A program made the position numbers and the translations under genes. A stretch of 51,023 bases of DNA, from positions 1 through 51,023 of IMG/VR virus record IMGVR_UViG_3300028388_002510; one strand, written 5' to 3'. The stretch comes from a virus. Shown here in pieces: positions 3,165-41,810 of this stretch; position 1 is the stretch's first letter; the number at the start of each line of letters is the position of its first letter. The notes beneath the pieces were generated by a model, which ran no database searches, had not been told where the DNA came from, and was given only the letters and a program-made list of their open reading frames with translations.

Positions 3165-3817
3165 CAGAACGCTCCGAAGAAGCCGAGGTCGTAGCCGCCG
3201 AGCCCGTCGTCACGGGAGTGGGCACGCTGCGCCGTAGTGATCTCTTCCGCGATGATCACGGAGCCCACCACCATCTCGCCCATAAGGACCGGCACTGGGA
3301 GGCCCTCAGCAGCGTAGTTCTGCGGCCCGTCGAAGAGCGTCGACTGCGTACCGTCGCCGTCATCCTCGAGTTCGGCTGGCTTGATGAGGAGCCCGGCCAC
3401 GCCCTGCACGACAAGGGCGAAGCCGACCGTGGCGGAGATGGTGGCGAACGAGGTCACGGTGGAGCCGATCTGGAGGCCGTACGCACCCAGCACAGGAAAC
3501 GCAAGCGACGCGGCGATGAGAAGGAGCCCCACCACGATCTTCACGATGTTGCCGGTGTTCGCACCGGACTCGACCGGGATCACGTGGAGCGTGCCGTCGA
3601 TGGTGTGGTCCAGCTCATCCGGGCCCAAGTAGGTCTCGGTCCCGTCCTTGACCACCTTGACCCAGAACTGGCCGTCCCGGATCACCTCGCGAAAGTTGGA
3701 GAAGTTGGCGCGCAGCGCCTTCATGACCTCGAAGGGCTTTCGCGCCTTGAAGCGGAAGGAGGGCCCGAAGGCGTCTACCAGATACCCGTGAAGGACAACA
3801 TCCGTCAGTGCAGCCAA
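3164..3817 (-). CDS. I: Tail tip assembly protein I
   Basis: 217 residues, matching the lambda tail assembly protein I family: an N-terminal ubiquitin-like part (LVDAFGPSFRFKARKPFEVMK), then a hydrophobic, glycine- and alanine-rich middle (about 90-160, GNIVKIVVGLLLIAASLAF) and a short C-terminal tail (GGYDLGFFGAF). In lambda, I acts with K, L and J to build the tail tip. The start is TTG at 3817 with GGAG about ten bases upstream; it overlaps the end of the K gene by 13 bases and its stop overlaps the J start. No better ATG lies nearby. The order M-L-K-I-J is exactly that of lambda. Confidence 0.88.
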   Translation of the reverse strand: MAALTDVVLHGYLVDAFGPSFRFKARKPFEVMKALRANFSNFREVIRDGQFWVKVVKDGTETYLGPDELDHTIDGTLHVIPVESGANTGNIVKIVVGLLLIAASLAFPVLGAYGLQIGSTVTSFATISATVGFALVVQGVAGLLIKPAELEDDGDGTQSTLFDGPQNYAAEGLPVPVLMGEMVVGSVIIAEEITTAQRAHSRDDGLGGYDLGFFGAF

Positions 3818-4113
3818 CTCACGTCTCCGTTCATACCGACGATCATCATCGGCACGGAGCTTACACGACGAGCCTCCCGGTCAGCATCAGACGGGAACGA
3901 ATCGCCGGGGTGGGTGTGCCACGTAGCGACGATCCGGCCGAACTGTGCGGCCCCGATGCGGCCCTGCGGGTCCATGATGAACCGGTCCGGGGCGGCGGAG
4001 AGATTCCGAACGGGGTAGACGGTGATTCCGGTCTCGTCGCAAACGAGGTAGCCGCACAGCTCGCCGACTCGATCCGCGCAAAGGGCGTACTCCCTGATCT
4101 CATCCGCGAGCAA
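3805..4113 (-). CDS. K: gpK-like tail tip protein, JAB/MPN metallopeptidase domain only
   Basis: About 102 residues if translated from TTG at 4113; no ATG or GTG is available near the end of L, so the start is the least certain part. The protein has a full JAMM motif: an upstream Glu in GELCGYL, then HTHP and SFPSDAD (H-x-H-x7-S-x2-D), which binds zinc in JAB/MPN domains. Lambda gpK has this domain followed by an NlpC/P60 cysteine peptidase; here the protein stops after the MPN domain, so the second peptidase is missing. It lies between L (overlap at 4100-4113) and I. A role in tail tip maturation or peptidoglycan contact is inferred from the family. Confidence 0.82.
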   Translation of the reverse strand: MLADEIREYALCADRVGELCGYLVCDETGITVYPVRNLSAAPDRFIMDPQGRIGAAQFGRIVATWHTHPGDSFPSDADREARRVSSVPMMIVGMNGDVSWLH

Positions 4114-4813
4114 CGGAAGGGAACCCCCCAAATGGGAGGGGTCCAGAGTCTCCGAACCGGAGGCGACAGCCTGCCAGTCGGTAGGAGCACTGGTCAGTTC
4201 CGTCGTAATCGGGATCACCGACCGGTCGGTCGAATGAATCGGCAACGTCGGGGCCGCTGTATCCGCAATTCGCATCTCGATAGCTCCACTGGCAGTAGTT
4301 CCGGGCGACCGTGCGGCGCGGGATGGTGACCCCTTCGAGGTCATGCGCCGCTGCGAGTTCGTAGGTGCACGTGACGGCATCCTGCGCCCGGAGTTGATGG
4401 ACGACGAACCGTTGTTGGACGTACTCCAGAGGGTCCGCATCCGCGTTCACGCCACCGGTGAAGTTCACAGCGTCGAGGTACTTCCGCATGGTGCGGATGC
4501 GCGTGATCTTGGCCCCGATGATGTCGTCGTACTGGAGGTTGAGCGTCGAGAAGACGCCGCCGAGGTTGCCGACGACGAGCTGTGGTCGGGACATGGAACC
4601 GTCGGCCCGGACCTCCATGTCCTCCATCTGGATCGGCCACCGGAGGTAGGTGTTGCCGTTGAAGACAATGTCGCCGCCCACGTCGTTCACGCCAGCGCAG
4701 TAGCGCACGAGGGGCTCGCCGGCATTGATCGGGCGCAAGTCGATCACGAACAGGTCGATCGGGGTACCGGGCTCGGGCGTCGAAAAGTCCCCCATCATCT
4801 TGAGGGTGCTCAC
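4100..4813 (-). CDS. L: Tail tip protein L (iron-sulfur type minor tail protein)
   Basis: 237 residues resembling lambda minor tail protein L. The N-terminal two thirds have the family's beta-rich pattern (FVIDLRPINAGEPLVRYC, NGNTYLRWPIQMEDMEV, VTCTYELAAAHDLEGVTIPRR). The C-terminus holds four cysteines in the arrangement NYCQWSYRDANCGYSG and DQCSYRLAGCRLRFG, which in lambda L coordinates an iron-sulfur cluster. The ATG at 4813 overlaps the end of M. L links the tail tube to the tip complex with M, I, K and J. Recognition is by motif and gene order; cluster binding is inferred from the conserved cysteines. Confidence 0.9.
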   Translation of the reverse strand: MSTLKMMGDFSTPEPGTPIDLFVIDLRPINAGEPLVRYCAGVNDVGGDIVFNGNTYLRWPIQMEDMEVRADGSMSRPQLVVGNLGGVFSTLNLQYDDIIGAKITRIRTMRKYLDAVNFTGGVNADADPLEYVQQRFVVHQLRAQDAVTCTYELAAAHDLEGVTIPRRTVARNYCQWSYRDANCGYSGPDVADSFDRPVGDPDYDGTDQCSYRLAGCRLRFGDSGPLPFGGFPSVARG

Positions 4814-5145
4814 GCCGGAACCTCCCGGAAGTCAGCCTGCACCTCGGCGTAATCGCCGCCCACGTCGTCACGGTTCCACGTGGAACATACGACACGGACG
4901 TCAGCCGAGGCCCCCGGCGGACGCCACGTGAAGGACGTGACGCCGCGCCGGACCGTCAGGAAGGCGTCGATCAGGTCGATGGTGGCGGGCACCTGCCGGA
5001 AGCGGAGACGCCACGTGCGGAGCGTGGGGTTCTCGCCGTCCGCGACGCGCTGTTCGTAGCCGTCGCCGAACGTTGCGATCCGCACACGGGGCTCGTACGC
5101 GGTACGCAGGGGTTGCTCGGGCTCTGCAAACTCGAAGTCAGCCAC
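4810..5145 (-). CDS. M: Minor tail protein M
   Basis: 111 residues with the short lambda gpM-type fold: EPRVRIATFGDGYEQRVADG is close to the family signature (FGDGYEQR-x-G-hydrophobic-N), and the C-terminus (DYAEVQADFREVPA) fits the usual length of about 110. It follows the tape measure gene with an eight-base overlap and overlaps L by four bases. In lambda-type tails M joins the tail initiation complex at the distal end. Assignment is strong from motif, size and synteny. Confidence 0.9.
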   Translation of the reverse strand: MADFEFAEPEQPLRTAYEPRVRIATFGDGYEQRVADGENPTLRTWRLRFRQVPATIDLIDAFLTVRRGVTSFTWRPPGASADVRVVCSTWNRDDVGGDYAEVQADFREVPA

Positions 5146-7582
5146 GGCGGAGCAATCCTCCCGGTCTCTGTTGCTTCTGAATCTCGTCGCGCACGAGCAT
5201 CCCGATCACCTCGCCAAACTGGCGGGCGTCGGCGTCGTCGGAGCCGCCGTCCACGGCCACGGAGCCATCAGTGGTCACGTTGACCGTGATCATGGGGCCA
5301 GCAGTGCCCTTCATGGTAACGGGCACGGACCGGCCGTCTGGGAGCGGGATCACCGCCTCCGGACCGGCCTCGCCCGCGATCGACACGCCGTCCGTGATGC
5401 CTCCGCGTGCCATGAGCGGCACACCGGAGGCAGAGCCGCCGCCGAACAGGCTGGCCGCACCCGAGAAGAGTGGCCCGAGAAGGTTCTCCTGAATCTGGTT
5501 CGCCGCCATGCGCGAGAGCATGTTGAGGAGGACGTTCCCGAAGTCCTCCAGTTCCAGCTTCCCTCGGCGAATGCCGTCCACTAGGGTGTTCGAGAACTGG
5601 TCCGACAGTTGCCGGGCGATCTCCAGTCGGCGGTTCGTGCGGAGAAGCTCCGTGGTCAGCTCTTCGATCCGCGCCTTCTGCTCCTCCGTGGCGTCGCCGT
5701 TGAGGCGCTCGATGTTGAGCATCGAGGCGCGCTCGTCCGAGGTCATGCGCGTGAGCCGGAGTTGCGCTTCGAGCTGCTCGATCAGGTCCTCACTCCCGAG
5801 GACGTTGTTTGCCTCCTGCACGCGGGCCTGCGCGAGACGTTCCTGCGTCTTGATCTCCTGTTCGAGCGCGTCCTGTCGGCGTGCCTGCGAGAGAAGGGCC
5901 TCGCGCTCAAGCTCTCCGGCCTGCGCGAGACTTCCGAGCGCGATCTCGGCATAGACGCGTTGCTCTTCGGTCAGCTTGCCTTGACTGTCCGCCCGCATCT
6001 GGAGGAGGAGAAGCTCTTTCTCCTGCCCACGGATGCGCTTCGCGAGCGCGGCGGCGTCGACCGCGCGGGCCTCGGCCATGATCCGGTTTCGTTGCTCAAG
6101 CGCAGCCTGTCCCTGAGCGACTATCGCCGGATCATTCGATCCTTGGAGTAGTTCGATCTGCGCACCGAGTTGGGCGAAGTCGCCCCCTGCACCGAACTGC
6201 GCACCCGTACTGCCCGCCGAGCCGTAGGTCCCCATCCCACGGAGCTGGCCCCGGAGGTTGTTCGACAGGCGACCCAGTCGGCCCGTAAGGTTCTGTACTG
6301 CCCGGCCGGTGTTGATTTCCTCCGGCGTGGCCATCGTCGCCGCCTCGGCGTTCATCTGCGCCAGCTTTTCGCCGATAGCCGTGAACTGCTTGCGGTACTC
6401 CTCGGAGCTTTCGTCGATGTCGTCCGCGACTGCGATCATCTCGGCCAGCAAAGCACGTGCCTGAAGGAGCGAGTCGATCGAGCTTTCCCCGCCGAGGGTC
6501 CGGATGATCCCCTCGCCGACGTTCAGTGCGGCCCGGCGGTTCTGCGTGGACGACGCGAGCGCGGCCCCGGCTCCCGTCTCGAAGAATCCCGACTGGCCGA
6601 GCGCGCTGAGCGGGTGATCGTTGATGAAGCCGAGCGCGCCGCCGAAGAGCGCGCCACCGGTGCCCCTGCCCGCGTTTGCGGCGTCCGTCCGGTCGGCGAA
6701 GTTCAGCAGGCCGCGAAACTGGCCGATTCGCTCCGTGGTCGAGGCGACCGACACGATCTCGGTCATTTCCTGCACGGCGGAACGCACCGTCTTCACCGCG
6801 TTAAAGAACGTCTCCTGCGTCCGCTCGCCCAGCTTCTGGAGGAACGTCTCCCACTCGCGCGTGAGCGACCCCATCTGCTTGGACGCGGTCGTCATCGCCT
6901 CTTCGTAGTTACCCTGAAGCCGACCCGCCTCGCGCAGGACCGCGTTCACGCGAATCTGAATCTTCTCTTGCTCGGAGAGCTGGTTGGCCGTCTTGTTGAT
7001 CGCGGACGCCGCGTTGGCGTACTCGCTCTCGAAGTTCACGAGAATGCCGACCGTTCGCAGCACCTCGATCTGCGCCGTCGTGATGCCGTGGATGAGGCGG
7101 TCGAGTCCGGCGGAGGAATCGGTCCCCATGACGACGGCCGCGTCCTGCGCGGCACGAGCGAGCTTCGCTACGTCGTCGGGCTCAAGACCGGACTGCATCC
7201 CTCGTGTGAGGCCCTGCATGGCGGACCGGGAGGTAATGCCGAGCTGCTCGACCTTCTGGACCGCCTTGCTGATCTCGTCGGACATGTAACCGGCGTTCTT
7301 GCCGACGTTCCGCACGACGACGCCGAGGGTCTCCACCCGTGCGGCGACCATCGTGGCTTGTCCGACGAGGCCGAGCGCCTTGTAGACCCCGGTCGCGGCG
7401 GCGGCGACGAGGCCGAGTCGACCGGCCAGCGCGGTGAACGACTTGTTCGACCGCTCGCCCATGTTTTCGAGCTTCTTGCCGGTGCGCTTGCCCTCCTCGC
7501 CGACATCGCGAATCTTGCGGATGGTGACTTCCGCACCACGGGCTTCGAGGACGGCTACGAGTTTAGCTAGCTGATCGCTCAT
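5138..7582 (-). CDS. Tail tape measure protein
   Basis: 814 residues, by position and composition the tape measure: it directly follows the frameshifted chaperone pair (20-base overlap with the gpGT end) and precedes M. A basic, coiled N-terminus leads into a hydrophobic segment at about residues 52-75 (LAGRLGLVAAAATGVYK), a long Ala/Gln/Glu-rich helical middle (about 430-660) and a glycine-rich C-terminal region containing GEAGPEAVIPLPDG, a signature common at the end of tape measure proteins. It sets tail length and is released into the cell envelope during infection. No peptidase or lysozyme domain is visible. A length of 814 residues would fit a tail of roughly 120 nm by the usual 1.5 angstrom per residue rule. 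Confidence 0.92.
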   Translation of the reverse strand: MSDQLAKLVAVLEARGAEVTIRKIRDVGEEGKRTGKKLENMGERSNKSFTALAGRLGLVAAAATGVYKALGLVGQATMVAARVETLGVVVRNVGKNAGYMSDEISKAVQKVEQLGITSRSAMQGLTRGMQSGLEPDDVAKLARAAQDAAVVMGTDSSAGLDRLIHGITTAQIEVLRTVGILVNFESEYANAASAINKTANQLSEQEKIQIRVNAVLREAGRLQGNYEEAMTTASKQMGSLTREWETFLQKLGERTQETFFNAVKTVRSAVQEMTEIVSVASTTERIGQFRGLLNFADRTDAANAGRGTGGALFGGALGFINDHPLSALGQSGFFETGAGAALASSTQNRRAALNVGEGIIRTLGGESSIDSLLQARALLAEMIAVADDIDESSEEYRKQFTAIGEKLAQMNAEAATMATPEEINTGRAVQNLTGRLGRLSNNLRGQLRGMGTYGSAGSTGAQFGAGGDFAQLGAQIELLQGSNDPAIVAQGQAALEQRNRIMAEARAVDAAALAKRIRGQEKELLLLQMRADSQGKLTEEQRVYAEIALGSLAQAGELEREALLSQARRQDALEQEIKTQERLAQARVQEANNVLGSEDLIEQLEAQLRLTRMTSDERASMLNIERLNGDATEEQKARIEELTTELLRTNRRLEIARQLSDQFSNTLVDGIRRGKLELEDFGNVLLNMLSRMAANQIQENLLGPLFSGAASLFGGGSASGVPLMARGGITDGVSIAGEAGPEAVIPLPDGRSVPVTMKGTAGPMITVNVTTDGSVAVDGGSDDADARQFGEVIGMLVRDEIQKQQRPGGLLRRG

Positions 7583-33085: not shown

Positions 33086-33120
33086 AAAAAAAGAACCCCC
33101 GGCCAGTACAGCACCGGGGG
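33086..33120 (-). terminator. Strong rho-independent terminator of the ribozyme operon
   Basis: On the minus strand CCCCCGG and CCGGGGG form a seven-base-pair stem with an eleven-base loop, followed directly by TTCTTTTTTT. It lies 18 bases after the stop of the last gene of the 40.5-33.1 kb operon, so this operon is clearly closed here and the SNF2-like gene needs its own promoter or read-through. Confidence 0.88.
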
Positions 33121-33137
33121 TCTCTTCCGTCAGTGGA

Positions 33138-33518
33138 TCAGAGTGCGGTCTCGAAGCCGATCCATTCGTGGAACTTCTCCTCGCCCATGTGCCGCTTGGC
33201 GGCGGCGGCGAGCGAGAACAGCATGTCGTGCACGTCGTGCTCGACCGCATCGCCCAATTCGAGCGGCTCCTCGGCCGTGTCCACGTAGCCCTTCCATGCA
33301 CAGGCGCGGACGTACTGCTCGGCAGTCAGCTCCTCGGAGGCATCCTTCTGCGCCATCCATCCGTCCGCGAGGCTCGGCAGAAGCACCGGGTCATCCTCTT
33401 CTTCGTCGGGCACGTGAACGCGGACGTACTCGCCGCGCTCCACGCAAAAGCCGAAGTCGCCTTCGGTGTCGACGAAGGTGGACAGCTCGAACGGGCACTC
33501 TTTGGTTGCGGTGGTCAT
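33138..33518 (-). CDS. Unknown acidic protein
   Basis: 126 residues, strongly acidic (VPDEEEDDPVLLP, DTAEEPLELGDAVEHDVHD), with a helical C-terminal third (FSLAAAAKRHMGEEKFHEW). Twelve bases separate it from the upstream stop, and this is the one junction of the operon without a ribozyme although genes do not overlap. Small acidic proteins sometimes mimic DNA or bind host factors; this is speculation. Last gene before the terminator. Confidence 0.65.
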   Translation of the reverse strand: MTTATKECPFELSTFVDTEGDFGFCVERGEYVRVHVPDEEEDDPVLLPSLADGWMAQKDASEELTAEQYVRACAWKGYVDTAEEPLELGDAVEHDVHDMLFSLAAAAKRHMGEEKFHEWIGFETAL

Positions 33519-33530
33519 CTCGGCGTTCTC

Positions 33531-34586
33531 CTATTGGTTGCCGATGGTCAAGGCGGCTTCTTCCCACGTCGGGAGTCCGTCCGCCGGTGCTACGAGTAAG
33601 GTCGCCACGGACTGCTCGATGTGCAGCAAGTGATGGCCCTCCTCGATGCTTATGCGCGCCGGGCAGATGCCCGTCACGCGGTAGCCGTCACGCACGCCGT
33701 TGATCACGAAGGCGGGAACCTCCTTCGCGTTTTCATCAGCGGCCTTGGAGACGGCTTTGAGGTTCTCGAACTCGCTCCACGGGGACCGTGCGTACTTCAG
33801 GACGATGTAGTCCGGGGCGCTGCCTCGCACCTCGTCGACGATCGACGGGGCGCAAGCCACTACCTTTCCGTTGCAGCGGACGTAGCACGCCGACGAGTTG
33901 CGGACGGCAAGTTCGTGCCACCTCTTCTCCTCCGAGAAGAGGGTTTCCCACGAAAGGTCAGCAACCCACCGGGCCGCTTCCGCCGCCGGCTCATCTGGCG
34001 CGTGCAATAGCCCTTCCGGTCGCGGGTCCATCAAGGCGATTCCGCGAGGGTGGGCGCAGTTCTCCGGAGGGTTCCTTATTCCGTGTGAGACGGCGTAGCC
34101 GGAAAACAGCTCGTTTGCACTGGCCTCTTTGGTTTTCTCGATCTGTTCGAAGATCAGATAGTTCATGGTCTCCGCCTCTTCGGCACTCTTCGTGTCGAAG
34201 ATTGCGATGCCCTTATCTGCCAGCTCACGAAAAACTTCGAAGTAGGACATCGTGAACGAGCACGGTCCGCCGCTGGCGTCCTTGCCCTTGTGCTTCAGGT
34301 GGACCTGAAGCATGAGACAGAACGCTTCCGTGGCGGCGAAGACTTCAGCCTTCTCTGCGTCGGGAAGCGACGGAAAAGCTCGCAGGCCGTCTCCGGGGTT
34401 GCCCCCGATCATCTGCTCTTCGCGGATCACACGGTCGACGTGAGCCGCGTACTTGCTCAAAGCGTCGAACACGGTACGCGCGCCCCGAGCATCAGACGAT
34501 GCGCTCAAGAGCGTTTCCGAAATACTCCGCAGAAGCGACTCGCACGGTTGCCCCTTGTACAGCGAGTTGAGTGCGTTCAACTTCAT
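33531..34586 (-). CDS. Unknown protein, downstream of ribozyme A
   Basis: 351 residues. Helical N-terminal half (PCESLLRSISETLLSASSDARGARTVFDALSKY, DAEKAEVFAATEAFCLMLQVHLKHKG); C-terminal half mixed (SACYVRCNGKVVACAPSIVDEV, VPAFVINGVRDGYRVTGI). No family recognised. AGGAGAACC lies about eight bases before ATG at 34586, and the predicted cleavage site lies 38 bases before the ATG. Confidence 0.7.
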   Translation of the reverse strand: MKLNALNSLYKGQPCESLLRSISETLLSASSDARGARTVFDALSKYAAHVDRVIREEQMIGGNPGDGLRAFPSLPDAEKAEVFAATEAFCLMLQVHLKHKGKDASGGPCSFTMSYFEVFRELADKGIAIFDTKSAEEAETMNYLIFEQIEKTKEASANELFSGYAVSHGIRNPPENCAHPRGIALMDPRPEGLLHAPDEPAAEAARWVADLSWETLFSEEKRWHELAVRNSSACYVRCNGKVVACAPSIVDEVRGSAPDYIVLKYARSPWSEFENLKAVSKAADENAKEVPAFVINGVRDGYRVTGICPARISIEEGHHLLHIEQSVATLLVAPADGLPTWEEAALTIGNQ

Positions 34587-34619
34587 TGTGTGGTTCTCCT
34601 AGAGTGGTGTGGGTGACTT

Positions 34620-34679
34620 CCCACGACGGCCCCTCCGGGGGCCGTTTCGACGAGTAGTCAGCTCGTCTCGTCAGGTGGG
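34620..34679 (-). ncRNA. Type I hammerhead ribozyme, copy A
   Basis: 60 bases on the minus strand: stem I CCCAC/GUGGG, core CUGACGA, stem II GACGAG/CUCGUC with loop CUGACUA, GAAA, stem III CGGCCCC/GGGGCCG with loop CGGA, then UC. All conserved hammerhead positions are present, and cleavage is predicted after GUC, between 34625 and 34624. The upstream gene ends one base before stem I (TGA at 34681-34683). The 3' product would begin GUGGGAAGUCACCCAC, a 5-bp hairpin. Confidence 0.9.
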
Positions 34680-34680
34680 T

Positions 34681-35565
34681 TCAGAACGTCAGTCCATGGG
34701 ACTGGGTGAGGTTCGCTCGATCGAGCGACGCCATGGCCGCAGACAGGCAGTCATCGTAGAACTCGCGAGTTTCCAGAAAGCCGGCCTTGCCGTAGACCTT
34801 CATACCAACGGCTTCGCAGTAGTCGGCCCACGTGTCAGGGCCCTCGTTCCCGGCGACTTCGTAGTTCTCCGACATCCAGCCAAGGTAGTCGAGTTCCGCG
34901 CCCCACCACGAAATAGCGTCGTGGTTAGGGATGTTCTCCGCCATCATCCGGGTCTCGGTCCTCGCTTCTTCCGAGTTGAGGGTCAGCCATATGTCGGCGG
35001 TGATCAGACCGAACTCGTCTTCGCTCTTCCACGTGAGCGCGTCCACGCCGCTCACGATGTCCACGTGGCACTCGTTCAACATGTCGAGGTCCACCGGGCG
35101 CAGCGATCGAAGAAAGCACTCCACGACATCGCAGTCCCGTTCGAGGACCACGATGGGTCCGTCGATTTGCCCTTTTCTGGCCATATTGCAGAACTGGCCG
35201 ACCATGTAGCCGAGGCCGAGTCCCGCGATCAGCACCCCCTTGCCGTCCTTGCAGTGATCGGCGGCGGCGGCGAAGTGCGGGAACTGGGATTCGATCTCCA
35301 TGGGGGCCAGCGACATCCACAGTTCCTCGCCTCGCATGAGGCGAACGGACGGCGGAACCATCATGAGCCCGGTAAAGTACGCCGAGCAGGCAATAGCGTT
35401 CCCGGACATCTTCTCGATGCTCCACGATCCAGCCGACGCTTCCCTGTACTGGAAGCACGACGGAAGCCCGCCGAGGTAGCGGGTTGCCCGCTCCTCGAAA
35501 CTGGCCGCGTTTGCTTCGACGTCGTATCGAGCTTCTATCATCTGGGACAGCTTGTTCATGTTCAC
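34681..35565 (-). CDS. Class I SAM methyltransferase-like protein (spermidine synthase-like fold)
   Basis: 294 residues from GTG at 35565 with GGAGA eight bases upstream; the ATG two codons later is an alternative. The segment GKGVLIAGLGLGYMVGQF near residue 107 is a Rossmann motif I, and PIVVLERDCDVVECFLR gives the acidic residue ending strand 2, both typical of SAM-dependent methyltransferases. NPPY/DPPY catalytic motifs of DNA methylases are absent, so the substrate is unknown. It lies between ribozymes B and A. DNA, protein or small-molecule modification of the host is possible. Confidence 0.6.
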   Translation of the reverse strand: MNMNKLSQMIEARYDVEANAASFEERATRYLGGLPSCFQYREASAGSWSIEKMSGNAIACSAYFTGLMMVPPSVRLMRGEELWMSLAPMEIESQFPHFAAAADHCKDGKGVLIAGLGLGYMVGQFCNMARKGQIDGPIVVLERDCDVVECFLRSLRPVDLDMLNECHVDIVSGVDALTWKSEDEFGLITADIWLTLNSEEARTETRMMAENIPNHDAISWWGAELDYLGWMSENYEVAGNEGPDTWADYCEAVGMKVYGKAGFLETREFYDDCLSAAMASLDRANLTQSHGLTF

Positions 35566-35606
35566 AGTTGTTCTCCTTGCTTGGATTAGAGTGGTGCGAG
35601 TGGCTT

Positions 35607-35666
35607 CTCGCTACGGCCCCCTCCGAGGCCGTTTCGATCCGTAGCCAGCGAATCTCATCAGGCGAG
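35607..35666 (-). ncRNA. Type I hammerhead ribozyme, copy B (most divergent, covarying)
   Basis: Stem I CUCGC/GCGAG, core CUGAUGA, stem II GAUUCG/CGGAUC with loop CUGGCUA, GAAA, stem III CGGCCUC/GGGGCCG, then UA. Every stem differs from the other copies yet still pairs. The stem II loop GGCU matches the 3' flank AGCC where other copies have GACU and AGUC. Cleavage is predicted after GUA, between 35612 and 35611. The stop TGA of the upstream gene is part of the core CUGAUGA. Confidence 0.9.
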
Positions 35667-36008
35667 TTTGTGCACGAGTCGTTCGAGTTCAGTGATGCGC
35701 TCTTCCTCTGCCGCGATGCGTTGGCGGAGGTTGCCGATCTCGACGAGCAGTCCTTCCTTGTCCTGCCGGCGCGTGTTCTTGCCTCCGCGCCGAGGCCCGA
35801 CAGGACCTCGGAGCAACGTCTCGATCTGGGACATGAACTGCACCGAGTTGATCGTGGACGGGAGCCGCCATACCAGCTCTTCCTTGTACCAACGCCCGCG
35901 ATGCTCTCGGCAGAGCGACGGAATCGCGCTCCTGTATTCGCACTTGAGTTCATAGCACCCGGAAGGAAAGTCCGGATGCTCAGCGGCGCGCAAAGTAGGT
36001 TTGGTCAT
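35658..36008 (-). CDS. Unknown protein with C-terminal coiled coil
   Basis: 116 residues from ATG at 36008, overlapping the stop of the membrane protein gene (ATGA). The N-terminal half (HPDFPSGCYELKCEYRSAIP, RWYKEELVWRLPSTINS) could bind a substrate; the C-terminal third is a coiled coil (KEGLLVEIGNLRQRIAAEEERITELERL). Its last codons (AAA CTC GCC TGA) are the 5' strand of ribozyme B stem I and the first bases of the core. No family recognised. Confidence 0.65.
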   Translation of the reverse strand: MTKPTLRAAEHPDFPSGCYELKCEYRSAIPSLCREHRGRWYKEELVWRLPSTINSVQFMSQIETLLRGPVGPRRGGKNTRRQDKEGLLVEIGNLRQRIAAEEERITELERLVHKLA

Positions 36009-36409
36009 TCGACAATCCTCCCATCGCTAGCGACGATACGAATCGGCGATCCGCCGCCATCGTCATCTTTGCCGGTGACGATGAGTTCGATCGACACGAT
36101 CCGATCCCACGGAACGCCCGCGCAGAACAGCCCGACCTCGTTCCCGTCGACCGTCGCGAACTTCGTGACACAAGATTTTTCCCGAGAACGGGCGACGCAC
36201 TGGTTAAGGTGGTCGAGCATCGAAGTACGCTTGGCACGCAGCTCTTGCACTTCGCCGATCAGTAGAAGAACGTCACTGGTCAACGCGATCGAGTAGCCGG
36301 TGAGGGCTCCAACTATGGCGCCGAGCCATGCAGGGCTGACGACGGCGTAGCCGAAGAAGGCTCCGCCGATAGCAGCGATCACGACGTTTTTCATCATGTC
36401 TTGGTTCAT
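36005..36409 (-). CDS. Membrane protein, two N-terminal spans
   Basis: 134 residues. Residues 7-50 are hydrophobic and glycine-rich (VVIAAIGGAFFGYAVVSPAW and LGAIVGALTGYSIALT), likely two membrane segments, followed by a soluble C-terminal part (VPWDRIVSIELIVTGKDDDG). No family recognised. The ATG at 36409 lies 37 bases after the predicted cleavage site of copy C. Confidence 0.65.
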   Translation of the reverse strand: MNQDMMKNVVIAAIGGAFFGYAVVSPAWLGAIVGALTGYSIALTSDVLLLIGEVQELRAKRTSMLDHLNQCVARSREKSCVTKFATVDGNEVGLFCAGVPWDRIVSIELIVTGKDDDGGGSPIRIVASDGRIVE

Positions 36410-36441
36410 GGGTTTTACCTTTAGAGTGGAGTGGGTGACTT

Positions 36442-36506
36442 CCCACGACGGGCCCTCCTCTGGGGCCCCGTTTCGGCAGGTAGTCAGCCTGCCATCGTCA
36501 GGTGGG
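36442..36506 (-). ncRNA. Hammerhead-like ribozyme, copy C (variant core)
   Basis: 65 bases: stem I CCCAC/GUGGG, core CUGACGA followed by one extra U, stem II GGCAGG/CCUGCC with loop CUGACUA, GAAA, stem III with one bulged G (CGGG-g-CCC/GGGCCCG), then UC. The U after CUGACGA is not seen in other copies and may weaken catalysis. The upstream reading frame runs through core and stem II (codons CAC CTG ACG ATG GCA GGC TGA), so coding need may explain the change. Predicted cleavage between 36447 and 36446. Confidence 0.75.
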
Positions 36507-36954
36507 CCGCGCCCTGAAAGCGCGGGTTGTTGCGGATGATGCGGCGTGCGTTGTCGAGGTTGCCGAGGAAGTACGTGTGCTCGAACACGTGTTCAGCCGT
36601 GATCTTTGAATCTAGGTCGGTCGGCTCGCCTTCTTCGTCCGGCGGTCCGAGCAACAGGACGCGCCCCGCGAGGGGCATAGGTCCCGCGCCGTTTCGGAGG
36701 ATCGGCACCATCGAGTAGCGTTGTTCGGTGCCGGGCTTGAGCAGCCCTTCCTCGTCGACCCAAGCGTTGACCGGGATCACGTCATGAAACCGAGCCCCCG
36801 GATTCATCTTTGCGATGAGTCCGTCGACAGCCTCGACCATGTTGACGCGGAAAACTCCCGGAGGAGATAGCGCGTCGTACATGCTTACGAGGTCGTTGTT
36901 GATGTCGATCTCGGTGACAGCCGTGTCGAACGGGCAGATCAGTAGTGCACGCAT
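36484..36954 (-). CDS. DUF3846-like protein
   Basis: 156 residues from ATG at 36954 with AAGGAAC upstream. The pattern MRALLICPFDTAVTEIDINND ... NAWVDEEGLLKPG ... LAGRVLLLGPPDEEG resembles DUF3846-type proteins, small phage or plasmid proteins of unknown function (some associated with anti-defence). The last codons are read through the core and stem II of ribozyme C, with the stop TGA in loop II. Family match is by eye and moderate. Confidence 0.6.
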   Translation of the reverse strand: MRALLICPFDTAVTEIDINNDLVSMYDALSPPGVFRVNMVEAVDGLIAKMNPGARFHDVIPVNAWVDEEGLLKPGTEQRYSMVPILRNGAGPMPLAGRVLLLGPPDEEGEPTDLDSKITAEHVFEHTYFLGNLDNARRIIRNNPRFQGAAHLTMAG

Positions 36955-36994
36955 GGTTGCGTTCCTTGTTCGGATTAGAGTGATGTGGAGACTT

Positions 36995-37054
36995 CCCACG
37001 ACGCCCCCTCCGGGGGCCGTTTCGACGAGTAGTCAGCTCGTCTCATCAGGTGGG
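36995..37054 (-). ncRNA. Type I hammerhead ribozyme, copy D
   Basis: Stem I CCCAC/GUGGG, core CUGAUGA, stem II GACGAG/CUCGUC with loop CUGACUA, GAAA, stem III CG-g-CCCC/GGGGCG with one bulged G, then UC. Cleavage predicted between 37000 and 36999. The end of the upstream 50-residue gene (AAC CCA CCT GAT GAG ACG AGC TGA) reads through stem I, core and stem II; its stop lies in loop II, so a finishing ribosome would hold the ribozyme open. Confidence 0.88.
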
Positions 37055-37185
37055 TTCTTGAAGATCGCATCGAAGGCGTCGGAGACGTTGCGCGGAGCCT
37101 TTCGCTTTCGCTCTAGCTCCGCGTTCCGCTTTTCCAACTCCCGTATGCGCTTCTGAAGTTTTCGTCGTTGGCTCTCCGTGATCAT
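37033..37185 (-). CDS. 50-residue coiled-coil peptide
   Basis: From ATG at 37185, overlapping the preceding stop (ATGA). Almost wholly helical: ESQRRKLQKRIRELEKRNAE then ELERKRKAPRNVSDAF. The last eight codons are also ribozyme D sequence. No family recognised. Small helical proteins of this sort commonly bind a larger partner, perhaps the 319-residue protein it is coupled to. Confidence 0.65.
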   Translation of the reverse strand: MITESQRRKLQKRIRELEKRNAELERKRKAPRNVSDAFDAIFKNPPDETS

Positions 37186-38141
37186 GCGACGAGTTCCTCT
37201 TGCATCTTGTCCCGGATGAACTCGATCGCAGCATGTTCGTTCGTGATCGAGCCCGGCACCATGATCACCGCGCCGTCGTAGTTCTGAAGCGCGGGAGGCG
37301 ATGCCAAAGGCTTGGGGTATCCCCATCCGGAATCGATGTACCGCGCGCATAGCGCGGTGGACATCACCTTTGACACCCACGAAACAGCGCGATAGCCCGC
37401 GCCCGTGCAAACCATGGAAGCGATGCGACCGTGGTCGATCGGGTCCTGATACGCCTTCAGGGTCACGGACATGTCGTGATCAATCTGGCCGCGAACCAAC
37501 TCCACATCTTTCGGAGCATCGTGCAGCCTGATCTTTCGCTTCACCGGCCCCCGTGCGATGTCGTGACCGCCGATAGCGGCAAGAATCTGCACGGGATGTC
37601 CTCGACTCAGGAGAGTTTCGGAAAGGTGAAGCGAGACCGCGCCACGCCAGAACAGCTCGTGTGCCTCGATGCCCGAATGAGCGCCGAGGTTGCACACGAT
37701 CGTGACGGCCTTTCCTGCCCCCGGTTTTTCGGCCGGGCGCATGGTCGACCATGCACGTTCGAGATCGCCCCGGTAGACGCGGTGGATGTCCAGCTCGTCG
37801 CCCTGACGACCACGCGTGCGCTTGCGCGCGTTGCGCATCAGGTGAGAGCCAACCTCCACCGCGCCGAGAGCACGTCGGAGTTGCGCGACGCCTTCGGGCC
37901 AGCCTCCGGTAACTCGGTCAATCAAAGCGTCATGCGACGCCTCAACGAACGTGTACCAGTCGCGAGAATTACCTCTCGAAAGATGCTCATTCACGTTCTC
38001 CGTGAGTTGGTCAGCGGAGGCTTGCGTGAACCAGTACGGCCTCGATTCCGGATCGCGAATCTGGGTGACCAGCTCGTGCACAGAATCAAAGTGCATACCG
38101 ACATGCGCGATTCGATAATTTTCTGTCAGCCAATATTTCAT
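37182..38141 (-). CDS. DUF7192-like / vWA-like partner of the AAA ATPase (tentative)
   Basis: 319 residues. The pattern DSVHELVTQI... SRDWYTFVEASHDALIDRVTGGWPEGVAQLRRAL followed by DIHRVYRGDLERAWSTMRP resembles phage proteins usually encoded beside MoxR-type ATPases. The second half (AVTIVCNLGAHSGIEAHELF, GAVSLHLSETLLSRGHPVQIL) recalls a vWA fold without an intact DxSxS metal site. Gene order (ATPase then this gene) matches the MoxR-vWA arrangement. Function unknown; assignment by eye. Confidence 0.6.
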   Translation of the reverse strand: MKYWLTENYRIAHVGMHFDSVHELVTQIRDPESRPYWFTQASADQLTENVNEHLSRGNSRDWYTFVEASHDALIDRVTGGWPEGVAQLRRALGAVEVGSHLMRNARKRTRGRQGDELDIHRVYRGDLERAWSTMRPAEKPGAGKAVTIVCNLGAHSGIEAHELFWRGAVSLHLSETLLSRGHPVQILAAIGGHDIARGPVKRKIRLHDAPKDVELVRGQIDHDMSVTLKAYQDPIDHGRIASMVCTGAGYRAVSWVSKVMSTALCARYIDSGWGYPKPLASPPALQNYDGAVIMVPGSITNEHAAIEFIRDKMQEELVA

Positions 38142-38185
38142 CGGTTGTTTTCCTTTCTAGTTAGAGTGGATTGTGGAAATGACTT

Positions 38186-38247
38186 CCCACGACGCCCCCC
38201 TCCGAGGGGCCGTTTCGACGAGTAGTCAGCTCGTCTCATCAGGTGGG
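38186..38247 (-). ncRNA. Type I hammerhead ribozyme, copy E
   Basis: Stem I CCCAC/GUGGG, core CUGAUGA, stem II GACGAG/CUCGUC with loop CUGACUA, GAAA, a G/C-rich stem III (CGGCCCC facing GGGGGGCG, imperfect), then UC. Cleavage predicted between 38191 and 38190. The TAA of the ATPase gene lies five bases before stem I. The 3' product hairpin is longer here (GUGGGAA/UUUCCAC). Confidence 0.88.
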
Positions 38248-38251
38248 TTTG

Positions 38252-39676
38252 TTACGCGGCGAGCGCCACGTTGATGCCGGAAACTTGCGTGAACCGGCGA
38301 ACTTCATCCTCGGACCAGTCGATGAAGTAGACAGCCTTCGCCTTCTCCACGTCCCAGACCTTCGCCGCGATCAACTTCGTGGCGTCCACGAGGAACCGTG
38401 TCGACATCACGCGTTGCACTGCCATGTTGTCGACGATGAACGTCCGCACGCGGCGTCCGAACTCCAGCAGAACCGGATCAACGATCGCCTCCTCCAACTC
38501 GTCGGAGTAGGTCATCTGCACGGTTCCCGCTTGGAAGCGGTTCCGCGTCGATCCGTCGAGTTGGTTCCGGCCGGTGTAGATCACATCGCCGACCGAATTG
38601 CCCAGCGTGTTCGCCGACGCGACGCACACGAAGTTCTCATGCCGAACCGCCACGGGATTGTCGTGACGTTGCGGCACGGAAAACCGATCGTTTGCGAGCG
38701 CCTCGTTCACGAGGAGCAGGATGTTCGGGTCAGCCGCGTCGAGTTCATCGAAGAAGAAGATGCCGCCGTTCTCGTACGCAGTGACGAAGGACGACGCCAC
38801 GTACTCGAAACGACCGGAATCGCCGATCGGAAGGAGCCAGCCCTGAAGGATTGACTCACTCATACCGGCGGTGCATGACACGAAGTGATAAGGCAGGTCG
38901 AGGACGTCCGCCGCTTGATTCACGAGGAACGACTTGCCACAGCCCATCGGGCCCTGAAGTAGCACGTTCATCCGGAGCCGAACGAGGTTGAGAACCTCTT
39001 CGAGCTTCGGATGTGCGGTGCCTTTCACAGCCTTCGGCTTCTTGCCCAGACCCTTGACCGTGATGGTCGCGGGACCTGCACTCGACTTTGCCTTAGCGGC
39101 AAGCTCAGCGATCTCCTCGATCCGCTCATGGAGCTTCTCGAAAGAACCGCCGAGCGAACGGAGCGCGGGCTCGACTACCTCGAACGCTTGTTCGCGGTAC
39201 TTGGCCAGCACTTCTTGCTCCGTGAGGTCGACGTCCTTGGCGATGCGGCGGATGAGGTCTTCAATCTCCTCTTCGCCTTCGCCTTCTCCGTCGCCTTCTC
39301 CGTCGCCTTCGCTCTCGCCTTCGCTCTCGCCGGCGGCGGCATCTGCCGCCGATTCGAGAGCAGCAACGAGAGGATCACCGGCTTCTGGCTTCGGCTTCGG
39401 TTCCGGCGGAGGCGTCGAGGCCGACTCTTCGCCGGAACCGTCGATGTCGTCGCCATCATCGAGGTCCGCCGCCATCGAAGCGGCGTCCCAGCCCTGACGC
39501 TTCTCCATCTCGAACAGGACTTTCATCTTGTCCGGGTGAGAAGCGAGCGCGAGGGCCCAGAAGCGTTTGCTCTTGCCAGCCGGGTTGACGGGGCAGTTGG
39601 TTGCCTTGTGCACGATCTTGATCGTGCCGAGGTCCACCTCGTCGAAGTACCGGGCCAGCTCAGTTGCATTGATCAT
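38252..39676 (-). CDS. MoxR/CobS-type AAA+ ATPase
   Basis: 474 residues. Residues 1-60 form a small N-terminal domain; about 75-145 is low-complexity (AAAGESEGESEGDGEGDGEG). The AAA core has Walker A LLQGPMGCGKSFLVNQ near 240, Walker B GGIFFFDELDAADPN near 305, sensor FVCVASANTLGN near 350 and an arginine finger region GSTRNRFQAGT. This is the CbbQ/NirQ/CobS type, ATP-driven remodelers that usually work with a vWA-domain partner. The next gene may be that partner. In phages the client is unknown; DNA or host-enzyme remodelling is likely. Confidence 0.88.
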   Translation of the reverse strand: MINATELARYFDEVDLGTIKIVHKATNCPVNPAGKSKRFWALALASHPDKMKVLFEMEKRQGWDAASMAADLDDGDDIDGSGEESASTPPPEPKPKPEAGDPLVAALESAADAAAGESEGESEGDGEGDGEGEGEEEIEDLIRRIAKDVDLTEQEVLAKYREQAFEVVEPALRSLGGSFEKLHERIEEIAELAAKAKSSAGPATITVKGLGKKPKAVKGTAHPKLEEVLNLVRLRMNVLLQGPMGCGKSFLVNQAADVLDLPYHFVSCTAGMSESILQGWLLPIGDSGRFEYVASSFVTAYENGGIFFFDELDAADPNILLLVNEALANDRFSVPQRHDNPVAVRHENFVCVASANTLGNSVGDVIYTGRNQLDGSTRNRFQAGTVQMTYSDELEEAIVDPVLLEFGRRVRTFIVDNMAVQRVMSTRFLVDATKLIAAKVWDVEKAKAVYFIDWSEDEVRRFTQVSGINVALAA

Positions 39677-39717
39677 CTTGATTTACCTTTCTGGATTAGA
39701 GTGTGGTGCAGAGACTT

Positions 39718-39777
39718 CCTGCTACCGCGCCTCCCGGCGGGGTTTCGGTGAGTAGTCAGCTCACCTCATCAGGCAGG
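39718..39777 (-). ncRNA. Type I hammerhead ribozyme, copy F
   Basis: Stem I CCUGC/GCAGG, core CUGAUGA, stem II GGUGAG/CUCACC with loop CUGACUA, GAAA, stem III CCCCGCC/GGCGCGG with one C-C mismatch, then UA. Stems I and II differ from the common versions but pair. Cleavage predicted after GUA, between 39723 and 39722. The upstream stop TGA forms part of the core. The released end folds GCAG/CUGC. Confidence 0.9.
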
Positions 39778-40221
39778 GGTTTTCAGGTACTTGATTTCGG
39801 AACGGAGGACATGGCGCACGCACATCATGAGCGCGTCCGCGCTCCCGTACGCCTCCGCCGGAATCTTCGAACGAACTTCGATGAACAGCTCTTCAAGCTC
39901 TTGATCCTCGGCGCCTTCCCAGTCTTCGGCGACGCCCTCCGGCCATCCGAGCGCGTCGTAATCGTTCGACGCATCGAAGAACAGCTCCCGGAAGGTCTGG
40001 TACGCCTCCTCTTCGAGGTGGATGTTCGCGCCGTCGATCTGAGCGTCGATCGACGGGCAACCGCACGGTGTGTGCGCGTCGAGTTCAGCCGAGATCTCCG
40101 CCGAGCGGTGTATCGTCGCGTTCATCGCCAGAACGGCGGCGAACGCGTCGCGGTACGTCGTGACGTGGCCGTTGTCGCTCTTGAGGAGGGCGACGAGGCC
40201 AGCGAGATTGATCTGAGTCAT
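39769..40221 (-). CDS. Unknown acidic protein
   Basis: 150 residues, acidic. N-terminal helical segment (GLVALLKSDNGHVTTYRDAFAAVLAMNA), then CGCPSIDAQIDGANIHLEEEAYQTFRELFFD and an acidic helix (EDWEGAEDQELEELFIEVRSK). No family recognised. AAGGTAAACAACC precedes ATG at 40221, which is 37 bases downstream of the predicted cleavage in copy G. Its last codons enter ribozyme F. Confidence 0.65.
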   Translation of the reverse strand: MTQINLAGLVALLKSDNGHVTTYRDAFAAVLAMNATIHRSAEISAELDAHTPCGCPSIDAQIDGANIHLEEEAYQTFRELFFDASNDYDALGWPEGVAEDWEGAEDQELEELFIEVRSKIPAEAYGSADALMMCVRHVLRSEIKYLKTPA

Positions 40222-40253
40222 GGTTGTTTACCTTTAGAGTGGAGTGGGGACTT

Positions 40254-40313
40254 CCCACTACCCCGCCGGGAGGCGGGGTTTCGACAAGTAGTCAACTCGT
40301 CTCGTCAGGTGGG
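40254..40313 (-). ncRNA. Type I hammerhead ribozyme, copy G
   Basis: Stem I CCCAC/GUGGG, core CUGACGA, stem II GACGAG/CUUGUC (one G-U pair) with loop UUGACUA, GAAA, perfect stem III CCCCGCC/GGCGGGG with loop UCCC, then UA. Cleavage predicted between 40259 and 40258. The TAA of the first gene of the operon lies just before stem I. Post-cleavage hairpin GUGGG/CCCAC. Confidence 0.9.
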
Positions 40314-40314
40314 G

Positions 40315-40512
40315 TTACACAGCCTTGCAGGCGTCGAGAAAGCGATCTCGATCGAAGCGCGGATTCTCGTCCGCGAACTCGTGAGCGAGGTTCTCCGCTA
40401 GCGCGTCCAACGCGCCGAGCGCCTCTTCGCTTTCGCGGGTCGTCACGTACGCGTGGCGCGTGTCGGCGATTGCGTCGGCGATCATCTGGAAATGCTTTTT
40501 GGTCATGCTCAT
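40315..40512 (-). CDS. Small conserved-looking phage protein, first gene of the ribozyme operon
   Basis: 65 residues from ATG at 40512 with AAAGGAAG upstream. The sequence MTKKHFQMIADAIADTR ... and NPRFDRDRFLDAC has the look of a widespread short phage protein (KKHFxxIAxxI ... NPxFDxxRFxxAC) of unknown function. It starts the operon behind the structured leader and ends in front of ribozyme G. Confidence 0.75.
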   Translation of the reverse strand: MSMTKKHFQMIADAIADTRHAYVTTRESEEALGALDALAENLAHEFADENPRFDRDRFLDACKAV

Positions 40513-40529
40513 CAGCGTCTTCCTTTTGT

Positions 40530-40640
40530 GATTAGAGTCGAAGCGGTGGCCGCTTCTGTATGGAACCGATCTGCACCGGGCCCATACAGAAACGGCCGGA
40601 CCCCCGAAGGAACCCAGCCGTCCTGTCTTGCACTCTAATC
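40530..40640 (-). promoter_or_regulatory. Structured leader RNA with alternative folds
   Basis: On the minus strand a nine-base pairing GATTAGAGT/ACTCTAATC (40632-40640 with 40530-40538) encloses three hairpins. P2 (40592-40621) has 13 pairs and a UUCG loop and is followed by TTTCTGT, like a terminator. P3 (40554-40591) pairs TTCTGTATGG with CCATACAGAA. P4 (40540-40556) pairs GAAGCGG with CCGCTTC. An extended P3 using GGCCG...CGGCC would break P2 and P4, so two exclusive folds exist. This is an attenuator- or riboswitch-like design; no known class recognised. Confidence 0.6.
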
Positions 40641-40659
40641 CACTCTAGGTGTTCGGTTA

Positions 40660-41500
40660 CTCGTCAGGCTTTTGCATTCCTAACAGCCCCTTTGAGGCGC
40701 GCGGTCCGCGAGACTATGCGGGCCGGGCTAATCGCCGGGCGAGTGCGAATTCTGCCCATTGGTGGGCAGGTCCCCAGTGCTAGGCCCCTCTCGGGGTCGG
40801 TTCCGTCGGCACCTTGTTGGCTCACCAGCGCCCTTGCGCCGCCTCCCGAAGGAGGAGGGGTCCCGGTCCGCACCGTATGCGACCCCTGTCAGGGTTCCGC
40901 GCGCTCTATGCGCGGTTCTGGCTTTCTCCCTGCGTCGGTTCTGTCGGCCGTCCGCGCCGTCCCCGTGTGGTGGGGTCTCCCTTGCCAGTCTTCGCCCTAG
41001 CGCGCGTCCCTCGGAGGGGTCCGGTCCCCCGTGGCATAGGGTTCCGGTAGTGCACGGGATGGGACCGTGCGGCGCGCTAGGGCGGCAGTGACCGGGCGAC
41101 CGTGTGGCCTTCCTCGTCATCCCTTGCAGGACCCGGAGCCGACCCCGTGCGGGCTCGACTACGTCGAGCATAGCACATCTGGTGCATCATGTGCACCTCG
41201 GATCGGGGCCCGCGTTGCACACCGTGCACCGGATGTCAAGCGATACCGGAAGGGCCCTTGATCTGGGTGGTAGGAACAATTGTCCTATTCTGAGAGGCCC
41301 GCAGTGGCCTTCTGAGCGGCGATCGGCCCGACTAGGGCCATGGTAGCGGGTGGGGGGAGATCGTGGCAGGAGCGGCCACGTGGGCGGCGAGGGACGAAAA
41401 AGGGGCCCGCGCCCTCCGGAGGAGGAGGGGAGGAGGGGAGTCACTCCGGAGGACACGAAGCGGGCCCAAGCCACCGCACCACTCTCAAGCTGGGCCGGGA
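40660..41500 (-). other. Hairpin-rich non-coding region upstream of the ribozyme operon
   Basis: No convincing gene in about 840 bases. On the minus strand many short hairpins follow each other, such as CUGCCCA/UGGGCAG near 40757, CCCC-GAGA-GGGG near 40792, CCUCC/GGAGG near 40850, CCGCGC/GCGCGG near 40905 and GCTCGAC/GTCGAGC at 41153-41169. Variants of CGGAACC and GACCGG-ACCCC recur. A long structured untranslated leader, an origin or a non-coding RNA are possible. A palindrome-like site around CAATTG lies at 41272-41288. Confidence 0.5.
41167..41195 (-). promoter_or_regulatory. Candidate promoter with overlapping operator
   Basis: On the minus strand TGCACA - 17 bases - TATGCT, the -10 box preceded by TG (TGC-TATGCT, extended -10). 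The -35 part and spacer lie in an inverted repeat GGTGCA-catga-TGCACC, and further TGCAC half-sites follow at 41213-41229. It points towards the ribozyme operon, about 650 bases before its first gene. A regulator binding GTGCAC-type sites is inferred. Confidence 0.4.
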
Positions 41501-41550
41501 GAGCGACCCAGAGCGCCAGTGTACACGAGTCCCGCTTGATCTTCACGGTG

Positions 41551-41652
41551 GGCTGGTGTACTCGCACGCCCGCGTACGTGCACGTACGCGAAGACTTCCC
41601 GTTCTGGCGACGCACGGAAAATCTCGTGCACGCACCCCTAGTGAAGGGGGGC
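41551..41652 (-). repeat. Intergenic repeat R1, copy 2
   Basis: Similar over about 100 bases to 18690-18801 in the TerS-TerL gap: hairpin CCCCnTTnACTAGGGGTGCGT, GAACGGGAA, GTGCACGTACGCGGGCGTGC, then AGTACACCAGCC. Here it lies after the tail/lysis operon and shortly downstream of R2 copy 2. Confidence 0.75.
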
Positions 41653-41696
41653 TGGGTATAACCAGACGGAATAAAAATCGCCATTCCTATTCTTGG

Positions 41697-41727
41697 ACCC
41701 AGATGGGAAAAACCATCGCGCGTGCGT
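41697..41727 (-). repeat. Intergenic repeat R2, copy 2
   Basis: Identical over 31 bases to 20892-20922, same orientation, again following the last gene of an operon (stop at 41811). Downstream on the minus strand the sequence becomes AT-rich (GGCGATTTTTATTCCG). Confidence 0.8.
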
Positions 41728-41773
41728 GAGGAGCGCGCGGGCGCGCGGTGGCAAATCGAAATGGAAGGCGCAA

Positions 41774-41791
41774 GCCCCCAAAAATGGAGGC
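41774..41791 (-). terminator. Weak terminator after the tail/lysis operon
   Basis: On the minus strand GCCUCC-AUUUUU-GGGGGC forms a six-base-pair stem, 20 bases after the last late gene, with only UUGCGCC following. A second copy of CTCCATTTTT lies at 41802-41811 just upstream. It may mark the end of the late transcript. Confidence 0.4.
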
Positions 41792-41810
41792 TGCGTGGAG
41801 AAAAATGGAG

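Follow-up and report, generated by a model that had tools for sequence, protein, structure and literature searches.

Does a phage operon whose gene gaps are filled with self-cleaving ribozymes cut its own transcript into short messages? The question is raised by the virus record IMGVR_UViG_3300028388_002510 of IMG/VR, analyzed here over its positions 1 to 51,023 (the window). The minus strand of the window carries seven type I hammerhead ribozymes at 34615-40314, all within one phage operon of eleven genes (g1-g11, 40512 to 33138, minus strand) and ten junctions (Table 1). The original prediction for this locus had described the seven hammerheads, placed one in every real gene gap and proposed that the polycistronic transcript is divided by self-cutting into messages of close to one gene each. 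The seven elements were present on the strand and with the letters that it gave. For the locus as a whole, self-cleavage in each gap into short, hairpin-capped messages is in our judgment the probable explanation.

The core pattern CTGANGA...GAAAC was found seven times in the 51,023-base window, each time on the minus strand and within the operon, as compared with a mean of 0.30 and a maximum of 2 matches in shuffled sequence. A covariance model (R1) was built from an alignment of 40 diverse phage hammerheads (A2), which held four of the seven window copies. When the window was searched with R1, exactly the seven copies were recovered at 66-73 bits (E 1e-16 to 8e-15), and the next-best match scored 12 bits (E 0.44). 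The copies left out of training (34615, 36437 and 36990) scored as well as the trained ones, and R1 detected no hammerhead in the other operons of the window. A variable-gap pattern search of the whole genome returned no matches, although the core pattern search recovers the same core, and covariance models of pistol and twister ribozymes had no match in the window.

All seven copies carry the core CUGANGA ... GAAA ... UH, surrounded by three stems of which stem I is open and stems II and III are closed, as in the type I layout. Nucleotide H17 at the predicted cleavage site, just 5' of the product start listed in Table 1, is C in four copies and A in three. In the copy at 36442, one additional U separates CUGANGA from stem II, a feature often seen in related phage hammerheads. 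Within A2, 100% of cells were paired in stem I, 98.8% in stem II and 98.5% in stem III; overall, 96.8% of pair cells were paired and 19 of 20 pairs changed on both sides, a level of compensatory change reached by none of 500 shuffles. The original prediction had named a covariance model search and a covariation analysis as its checks, and both came out in its favor, the significant matches to all seven copies being those of R1. Judged by sequence and structure, the window elements are hammerhead ribozymes and the array is real.

Stems I-III were used for the detection of sequences, and the pseudoknot pairing was not. In this four-base pseudoknot, loop II (GACU) can pair with the AGUC that follows stem I immediately on its 3' side; in the copy at 35602 both sides are changed, to GGCU and AGCC. 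All four pseudoknot pairs covaried in A2, with 87.5% of cells paired, and the two middle pairs were changed on both sides in 8 and 9 sequences. Relatives were collected by a pattern scan of IMG/VR and a structural filter; an earlier, looser pattern, which among the matches listed gave mostly chance hits, was superseded by a stricter pattern and this filter. When partners were permuted among 85 non-redundant sequences, the pseudoknot score was 515±14 (maximum 553), as compared with 673 for the natural partners. The elements therefore possess the tertiary contact between the stem I region and loop II that is expected of type I hammerheads. Such pseudoknots are already known in hammerheads (Perreault et al. 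2011, PMC3088659, cited here and below for its available sections). The pseudoknot goes beyond the original prediction, as do two features described below, the predicted hairpin of the cleaved product and the leader motif with its complement.

The placement of the ribozymes followed the gene borders. Seven of the ten junctions hold a hammerhead, and the three others are two ATGA overlaps (37185 and 36008) and one gap of 12 nucleotides (33530-33519). Every non-overlapping gap except the 12-nucleotide one is thus occupied, as had been predicted, and the next gap (33137-33036) holds an intrinsic terminator that closes the operon. The description of these sites as gaps needed a qualification, because four of the upstream stop codons fall inside the ribozyme, either in CUGAUGA or in loop II (Table 1), and the gap then partly overlaps coding sequence.

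Arrays of the same kind were present in other phages. Searches of whole contigs with R1 revealed many uncultivated phage contigs with 3-6 hammerheads in an array. The largest one seen had nine type I hammerheads within ~6.5 kb of a Clostridiales assembly contig (L342, G042:C30, plus strand, 590-7131), so seven is not a record. Across 12 regions of other phages, a type I hammerhead was found in 40 of 49 gaps of at least 60 nucleotides and in no junction below that length (0 of 22). Of the nine larger gaps without one, six held another ribozyme, namely four pistols and one twister-P5, all above the Rfam cut-off, and one hammerhead variant, RAGATH-1, below its Rfam cut-off with the full core present. 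A recognized ribozyme of any class was thus found in 46 of the 49 gaps. In contig G003, two pistols and six hammerheads, of which one is a variant like RAGATH-1, fill the eight true gaps of a single array; a region of contig G017 is likewise mixed (Table 1), and the third pistol of that contig lies at G017:60307. Since hammerhead, pistol and twister interchange at such gaps, this exchange of unrelated classes at equivalent positions argues that self-cleavage at gene borders is itself what is selected, and it is the strongest argument for such selection. Pistol ribozymes cut just before hairpin P3, so that a pistol product would also begin with a hairpin. In several of the phage contigs (L310, L318 and L319), amidoligase-like genes (phrog_2443 and phrog_16683) adjoin the hammerhead arrays.

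Each window copy repeats the 5' strand of stem I after the 3' strand, and the 3' strand can pair with this repeat to form a hairpin such as GUGGG-AAGUC-CCCAC, GCGAG-AAGCCA-CUCGC or GCAGG-AAGUC-UCUGC. Among the 85 non-redundant phage hammerheads, a hairpin of at least four pairs starting exactly at nucleotide +1 of the predicted product was possible in 70, as compared with 50.7±2.8 (maximum 58) in a tail-swap control, the score lying 7.5 z units above the control. The mirror test upstream of the ribozyme gave a z of only 1.2. Shifting the start to +2 or +3 lowered the number of hairpins from 70 to 41 and 26, respectively, and the +1 signal persisted (z 5.3) when the five pseudoknot letters were masked. 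Loops were short in many relatives (GUGG-GAAA-CCAC, GCGG-GAGA-CCGC), and in 73 of the 85 a start codon accompanied by a Shine-Dalgarno-like sequence followed, its median distance from +1 being 45 nucleotides. The calculated pairing probability of nucleotides 1-3 after cleavage was 0.94-1.00 in six window copies; for the one at 39713 it was 0.58. Stem-loops at the 5' terminus stabilize bacterial mRNA (Emory et al. 1992, as cited in PMC3997798), and the 5'-OH cleavage product of the glmS ribozyme is degraded by RNase J1 (PMC3997798). The +1 hairpin is likely to be mainly a device for product release and 5'-end protection. No description of a +1 strand-exchange hairpin was found in the literature searched, which was only partly covered. 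A separate hammerhead group from IMG/VR (L006, L024, L036, L045, L055, L075, L079, L086 and L114) has a long stem III and conserved flanks (ACACGC-CUGANGA ... UA-GCGUGGAGUC), and its members that were tested lacked a +1 hairpin.

We propose that the hammerhead of each gap would fold as RNA polymerase passes, through stem I (for example CCCAC/GUGGG) and the pseudoknot of loop II (GACU or GGCU) with AGUC or AGCC 3' of stem I, and would cut after GUC or GUA, at a site 3' of each stop codon. Stems II and III would remain at the 3' end of the upstream message. The downstream message would begin with the released 3' strand of stem I, which would re-pair with the second copy of the 5' strand, giving a blunt hairpin at nucleotide +1, as in GUGGG-AAGUC-CCCAC. 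This refolding is predicted to pull the product off the ribozyme, to make the cut one-way and to shield the 5'-OH end from decay. The outcome would be mRNAs of one or two genes, each with a hairpin, the leader motif CACUCUA, a Shine-Dalgarno region and a start codon, whose output could be controlled separately. The predicted self-cutting into nearly single-gene messages is thus retained as the best explanation on the basis of placement, both here and in the 12 regions of other phages; the cleavage itself we infer.

The messages would also share a sequence ahead of their start codons. CACUCUA was present in all seven window leaders between the hairpin and the Shine-Dalgarno region, and CACUCUAA in six of them. 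A tandem complement of this motif, CCUAGAGUGGAUUAGAGUG, lies in the noncoding leader 346 nucleotides before the first hammerhead and matches the g1 leader, as well as every one of the seven, perfectly over 9-12 nucleotides. When the whole strand was scanned for the site most complementary to all leaders, 40631-40649 ranked first with a score of 29, and the next separate sites scored 12. Calculated duplex energies were -17 to -24 kcal/mol, as compared with shuffled means near -9.5. A similar layout was found in contig G009, which has no protein similarity to the window: ACUGCACA occurs in six of six leaders, and its tandem complement UGUGCAGUGCAGUUUGUGC, the best site of that contig, lies just before the first hammerhead. 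These were the only 2 of the 14 arrays scanned to have the layout; no convincing upstream element was found by the complement scan in the 12 others, among which G036 had only a 6-base match at the corresponding upstream place. With random siting, the best site would fall within 400 nucleotides upstream in ~1% of contigs, and the chance of 2 in 14 is by our estimate ~0.01.

These observations suggest an antisense leader, in which the tandem boxes, as a separate RNA or in cis, would pair with CACUCUA beside the Shine-Dalgarno region and set the translation or stability of all genes together, cleavage separating the regulator from its targets. Such control is compatible with self-cleavage in the gaps, and we regard it as possible, though tentative. 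The perfect complementarity, the first rank in an unbiased scan, the duplex energies and the recurrence of the layout with different letters in the unrelated G009 favor it. However, the layout was limited to 2 of the 14 arrays scanned, the seven leaders may descend from a common ancestor and so represent one coincidence rather than seven, and the element, which is partly paired in the predicted leader fold, may pair only with the g1 leader in cis or be a protein site. More speculative is the proposal that per-gene ribozymes, hairpin-capped mRNAs and leader antisense boxes form a two-part system in which one RNA sets the output of the operon, with the window and G009 as two independent instances; we consider this rather doubtful.

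No description of a leader motif with an upstream complement was found in the literature searched. The combination of the window's own hammerhead with CACTCTAA was searched for elsewhere, and none was found. When relatives were sought for the AAA protein g3 and for one G009 gene, only distant or self matches were found, and hence no close relatives in which the motif could be traced by descent. The stop codon of the last gene, just before the terminator, is overlapped at 33135-33146 (minus strand) by GCACTCTGATCC, which differs from the leader motif by two mismatches and may be due to chance. The leaders of G009 (L308, ~900-1150) and G036 (L340/L341, upstream of the first hammerhead) carry GCTCTTTGACA, which resembles the boxA of ribosomal RNA operons; transcription of these two arrays may be antiterminated. 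CTCTTTCCCATCGTGAA is common to the same two contigs, and an exact search for it found no contig beyond them.

The region that contains the complement extends for ~1.3 kb upstream of g1. Two open reading frames within it (40728-41171 and 41187-41684) were rejected as genes, as their GC content by codon position was flat (0.70/0.68/0.72 and 0.60/0.65/0.69, as compared with ~0.65/0.41/0.78 in the operon genes). A 506-base part of the leader folded better than its shuffles (z -3.5), and an 841-base part less clearly so (z -2.2). Comparison of the 1.3-kb leader with Rfam, phage and plasmid sequences yielded no convincing match and no known large RNA. The region is possibly a new large phage RNA or a long leader.

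Several observations weigh against self-cleavage in every gap. The virus is known only as an uncultivated record of 51,023 bases, and the interpretation is drawn from its sequence. A search of the window against Rfam at gathering and relaxed thresholds gave no hammerhead match, and the Rfam model Hammerhead_1 gave one copy 22.1 bits (E 1.8e-4) as compared with a cut-off of 34, which is a curation threshold and not a defining feature of type I hammerheads. Relatives with an identical core also fell below this cut-off, at 24-27 bits, and we take the low scores to reflect a limit of the Rfam model, because R1 and covariation are clear. The comparison contigs were chosen for holding at least two hammerheads, and their genes were called crudely, by a simple script. 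Finally, pre-cleavage folding favored the downstream hairpin over stem I (P of stem I 0.00-0.31), and in that model the hairpin could also keep the ribozyme off.

This last observation is consistent with a regulated switch, in which the downstream copy of the stem I strand keeps the ribozyme inactive until a factor frees stem I, so that cutting would be conditional. The factor might be a ribosome at a stop codon inside the ribozyme, as four of the seven arrangements would allow, or a protein, or a leader RNA bound beside the hairpin, directly after which comes the motif that can pair with the upstream element. We consider such a switch unlikely. The energy model omits the four-base pseudoknot and the tertiary and core contacts, which should favor the ribozyme, and the hairpin is for this reason read mainly as a release and protection device; moreover, the 5' strand of stem I is transcribed first, and natural tandem hammerheads cut efficiently during transcription (PMC3088659).

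It is very improbable that the array consists of relics of selfish spread, that is, of one cassette duplicated with no benefit at each gene. Several copies do have stem II and stem III letters in common, and hammerheads are common in mobile elements (PMC3088659), but all cores are intact while the stems have diverged with pairing kept, the copies are confined to the true gaps of a single operon and all point the same way, and in other phages the equivalent gaps are occupied by ribozymes of unrelated classes. That the elements are ordinary, hammerhead-like hairpins or RNase III-type sites, and not ribozymes, can practically be dismissed, since the strict CUGANGA/GAAA/UH core, the pseudoknot and E values near 1e-16 would not be expected of simple hairpins.

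In T7-like phages, RNase III cuts between the genes of a long transcript, resulting in stable, nearly monocistronic mRNAs with structured ends. That processing requires a host protein, whereas the window RNA is expected to cut itself, leaving a 5'-OH and a 2',3'-cyclic phosphate. If per-gap self-cleavage is true, some phages replace processing by host RNase with RNA and protect the ends so created. As in the window, self-cleavage of the glmS ribozyme upstream of a gene leaves a 5'-OH mRNA; however, that ribozyme is ligand dependent and its product is destroyed by RNase J1 (PMC3997798), whereas the window product is predicted to start with a hairpin. A hairpin at the extreme 5' end is shared with the stabilizing stem-loops of Emory et al. 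1992 (as cited in PMC3997798), which are made by the start of transcription, and not, as predicted here, by ribozyme cleavage and strand exchange.

The idea of processing has been known since 2011. Perreault et al. 2011 reported clusters of hammerheads flanking individual prophage genes, proposed that these yield mRNAs of single-gene length, and found that three natural tandem arrangements cleave in vitro, the triple one also in Escherichia coli (PMC3088659). With prophage clusters of up to three in that study and arrays of 5-9 in other contigs here, the original prediction was too strong in holding that hammerheads are known singly or in pairs and that no per-gene array had been described. 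Those clusters resemble the window in having several hammerheads with intact cores and the stem I/II pseudoknot, in one orientation, around single phage genes. They differ in number, with up to three each as compared with seven here, in every non-overlapping gap of a complete operon apart from the 12-nucleotide one, and the available sections describe no +1 hairpin, shared leader motif or upstream complement (PMC3088659). Pistol and twister-P5 ribozymes near phage genes (available sections of Harris et al. 2015, PMC4604425, and the RAGATH work cited there) are likewise self-cleaving RNAs in gaps of phage operons, near hammerheads, and in two contigs here occupy gaps of the same array as hammerheads; they have other folds, and none is present in the window. 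The apparent additions are completeness, the strand-exchange hairpin, the gap-by-gap mixed arrays and the leader complement, no description of which was found in the literature searched.

The role of small self-cleaving ribozymes in phages and bacteria has been stated as an open question (PMC6155905). Three features point to a role in mRNA processing, namely the complete operon with one ribozyme per gap, the hairpin exactly at the cut end and the exchange of classes at equivalent gaps; this reading makes the long-open question of function testable by single mutations. If it is true, the layout would offer a ready-made pattern for separate, stable mRNAs from one operon.

Table 1. Features of the operon and its leader, with two mixed arrays of other contigs. 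Coordinates are those of the window unless a contig is named.
Feature	Coordinates	Strand	Product start	Details
Noncoding leader region	40513..41810	-		~1.3 kb upstream of g1; open reading frames without coding GC pattern
Tandem complement of leader motif	40631..40649	-		CCUAGAGUGGAUUAGAGUG; within noncoding leader
g1	40315..40512	-		65 aa; no family match
Hammerhead 1 (g1/g2)	40249..40314	-	40258	R1 68.9 bits, E 1.5e-15
Predicted post-cleavage 5'-terminal hairpin	40244..40258	-		GUGGG-AAGUC-CCCAC; equivalents after the other six cleavage sites
Leader motif	40234..40242	-		CCACUCUAA; 5' of Shine-Dalgarno region
Other leader motif copies	near 39696, 38161, 36975, 36421, 35586, 34600	-		the last reads CACUCUAG
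g2	39769..40221	-		150 aa; no family match; stop codon in CUGAUGA of hammerhead 2
Hammerhead 2 (g2/g3)	39713..39778	-	39722	R1 66.1 bits, E 8e-15
g3	38252..39676	-		AAA ATPase (Pfam AAA_5; phrog_249)
Hammerhead 3 (g3/g4)	38181..38248	-	38190	R1 67.8 bits, E 2.9e-15
g4	37182..38141	-		DUF7192 protein
g5	37033..37185	-		50 aa; ATGA overlap with g4; end in loop II of hammerhead 4
Hammerhead 4 (g5/g6)	36990..37055	-	36999	R1 69.2 bits, E 1.2e-15
g6	36484..36954	-		DUF3846 protein; stop codon in loop II of hammerhead 5
Hammerhead 5 (g6/g7)	36437..36507	-	36446	R1 68.1 bits, E 2.4e-15; extra U before stem II
g7	36005..36409	-		134 aa; no family match
g8	35658..36008	-		116 aa; ATGA overlap with g7; end in CUGAUGA of hammerhead 6
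Hammerhead 6 (g8/g9)	35602..35667	-	35611	R1 71.1 bits, E 4e-16
g9	34681..35565	-		294 aa; methyltransferase-like (phrog_15480, E 6.5e-7)
Hammerhead 7 (g9/g10)	34615..34680	-	34624	R1 73.3 bits, E 1.1e-16
g10	33531..34586	-		351 aa; no family match
g11	33138..33518	-		126 aa; last gene; 12-nt gap to g10 without ribozyme
Intrinsic terminator	33086..33120	-		CCCCCGG...CCGGGGG then TTCTTTTTTT
Mixed array L309	G003:C1:2000-8500	-		six hammerheads, two pistols
Mixed region L313	G017:C1:30500-38000	+		six hammerheads, two pistols, one twister-P5

Most products of the operon are without an assigned function, the exceptions being the family matches of g3, g4, g6 and g9. Genes for a helicase, a primase and a DNA polymerase follow downstream of the terminator; together with the terminase and tape-measure genes, they mark a tailed phage. 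Its nearest annotated relatives by polymerase were Stenotrophomonas and Pseudomonas phages, at ~43% identity.

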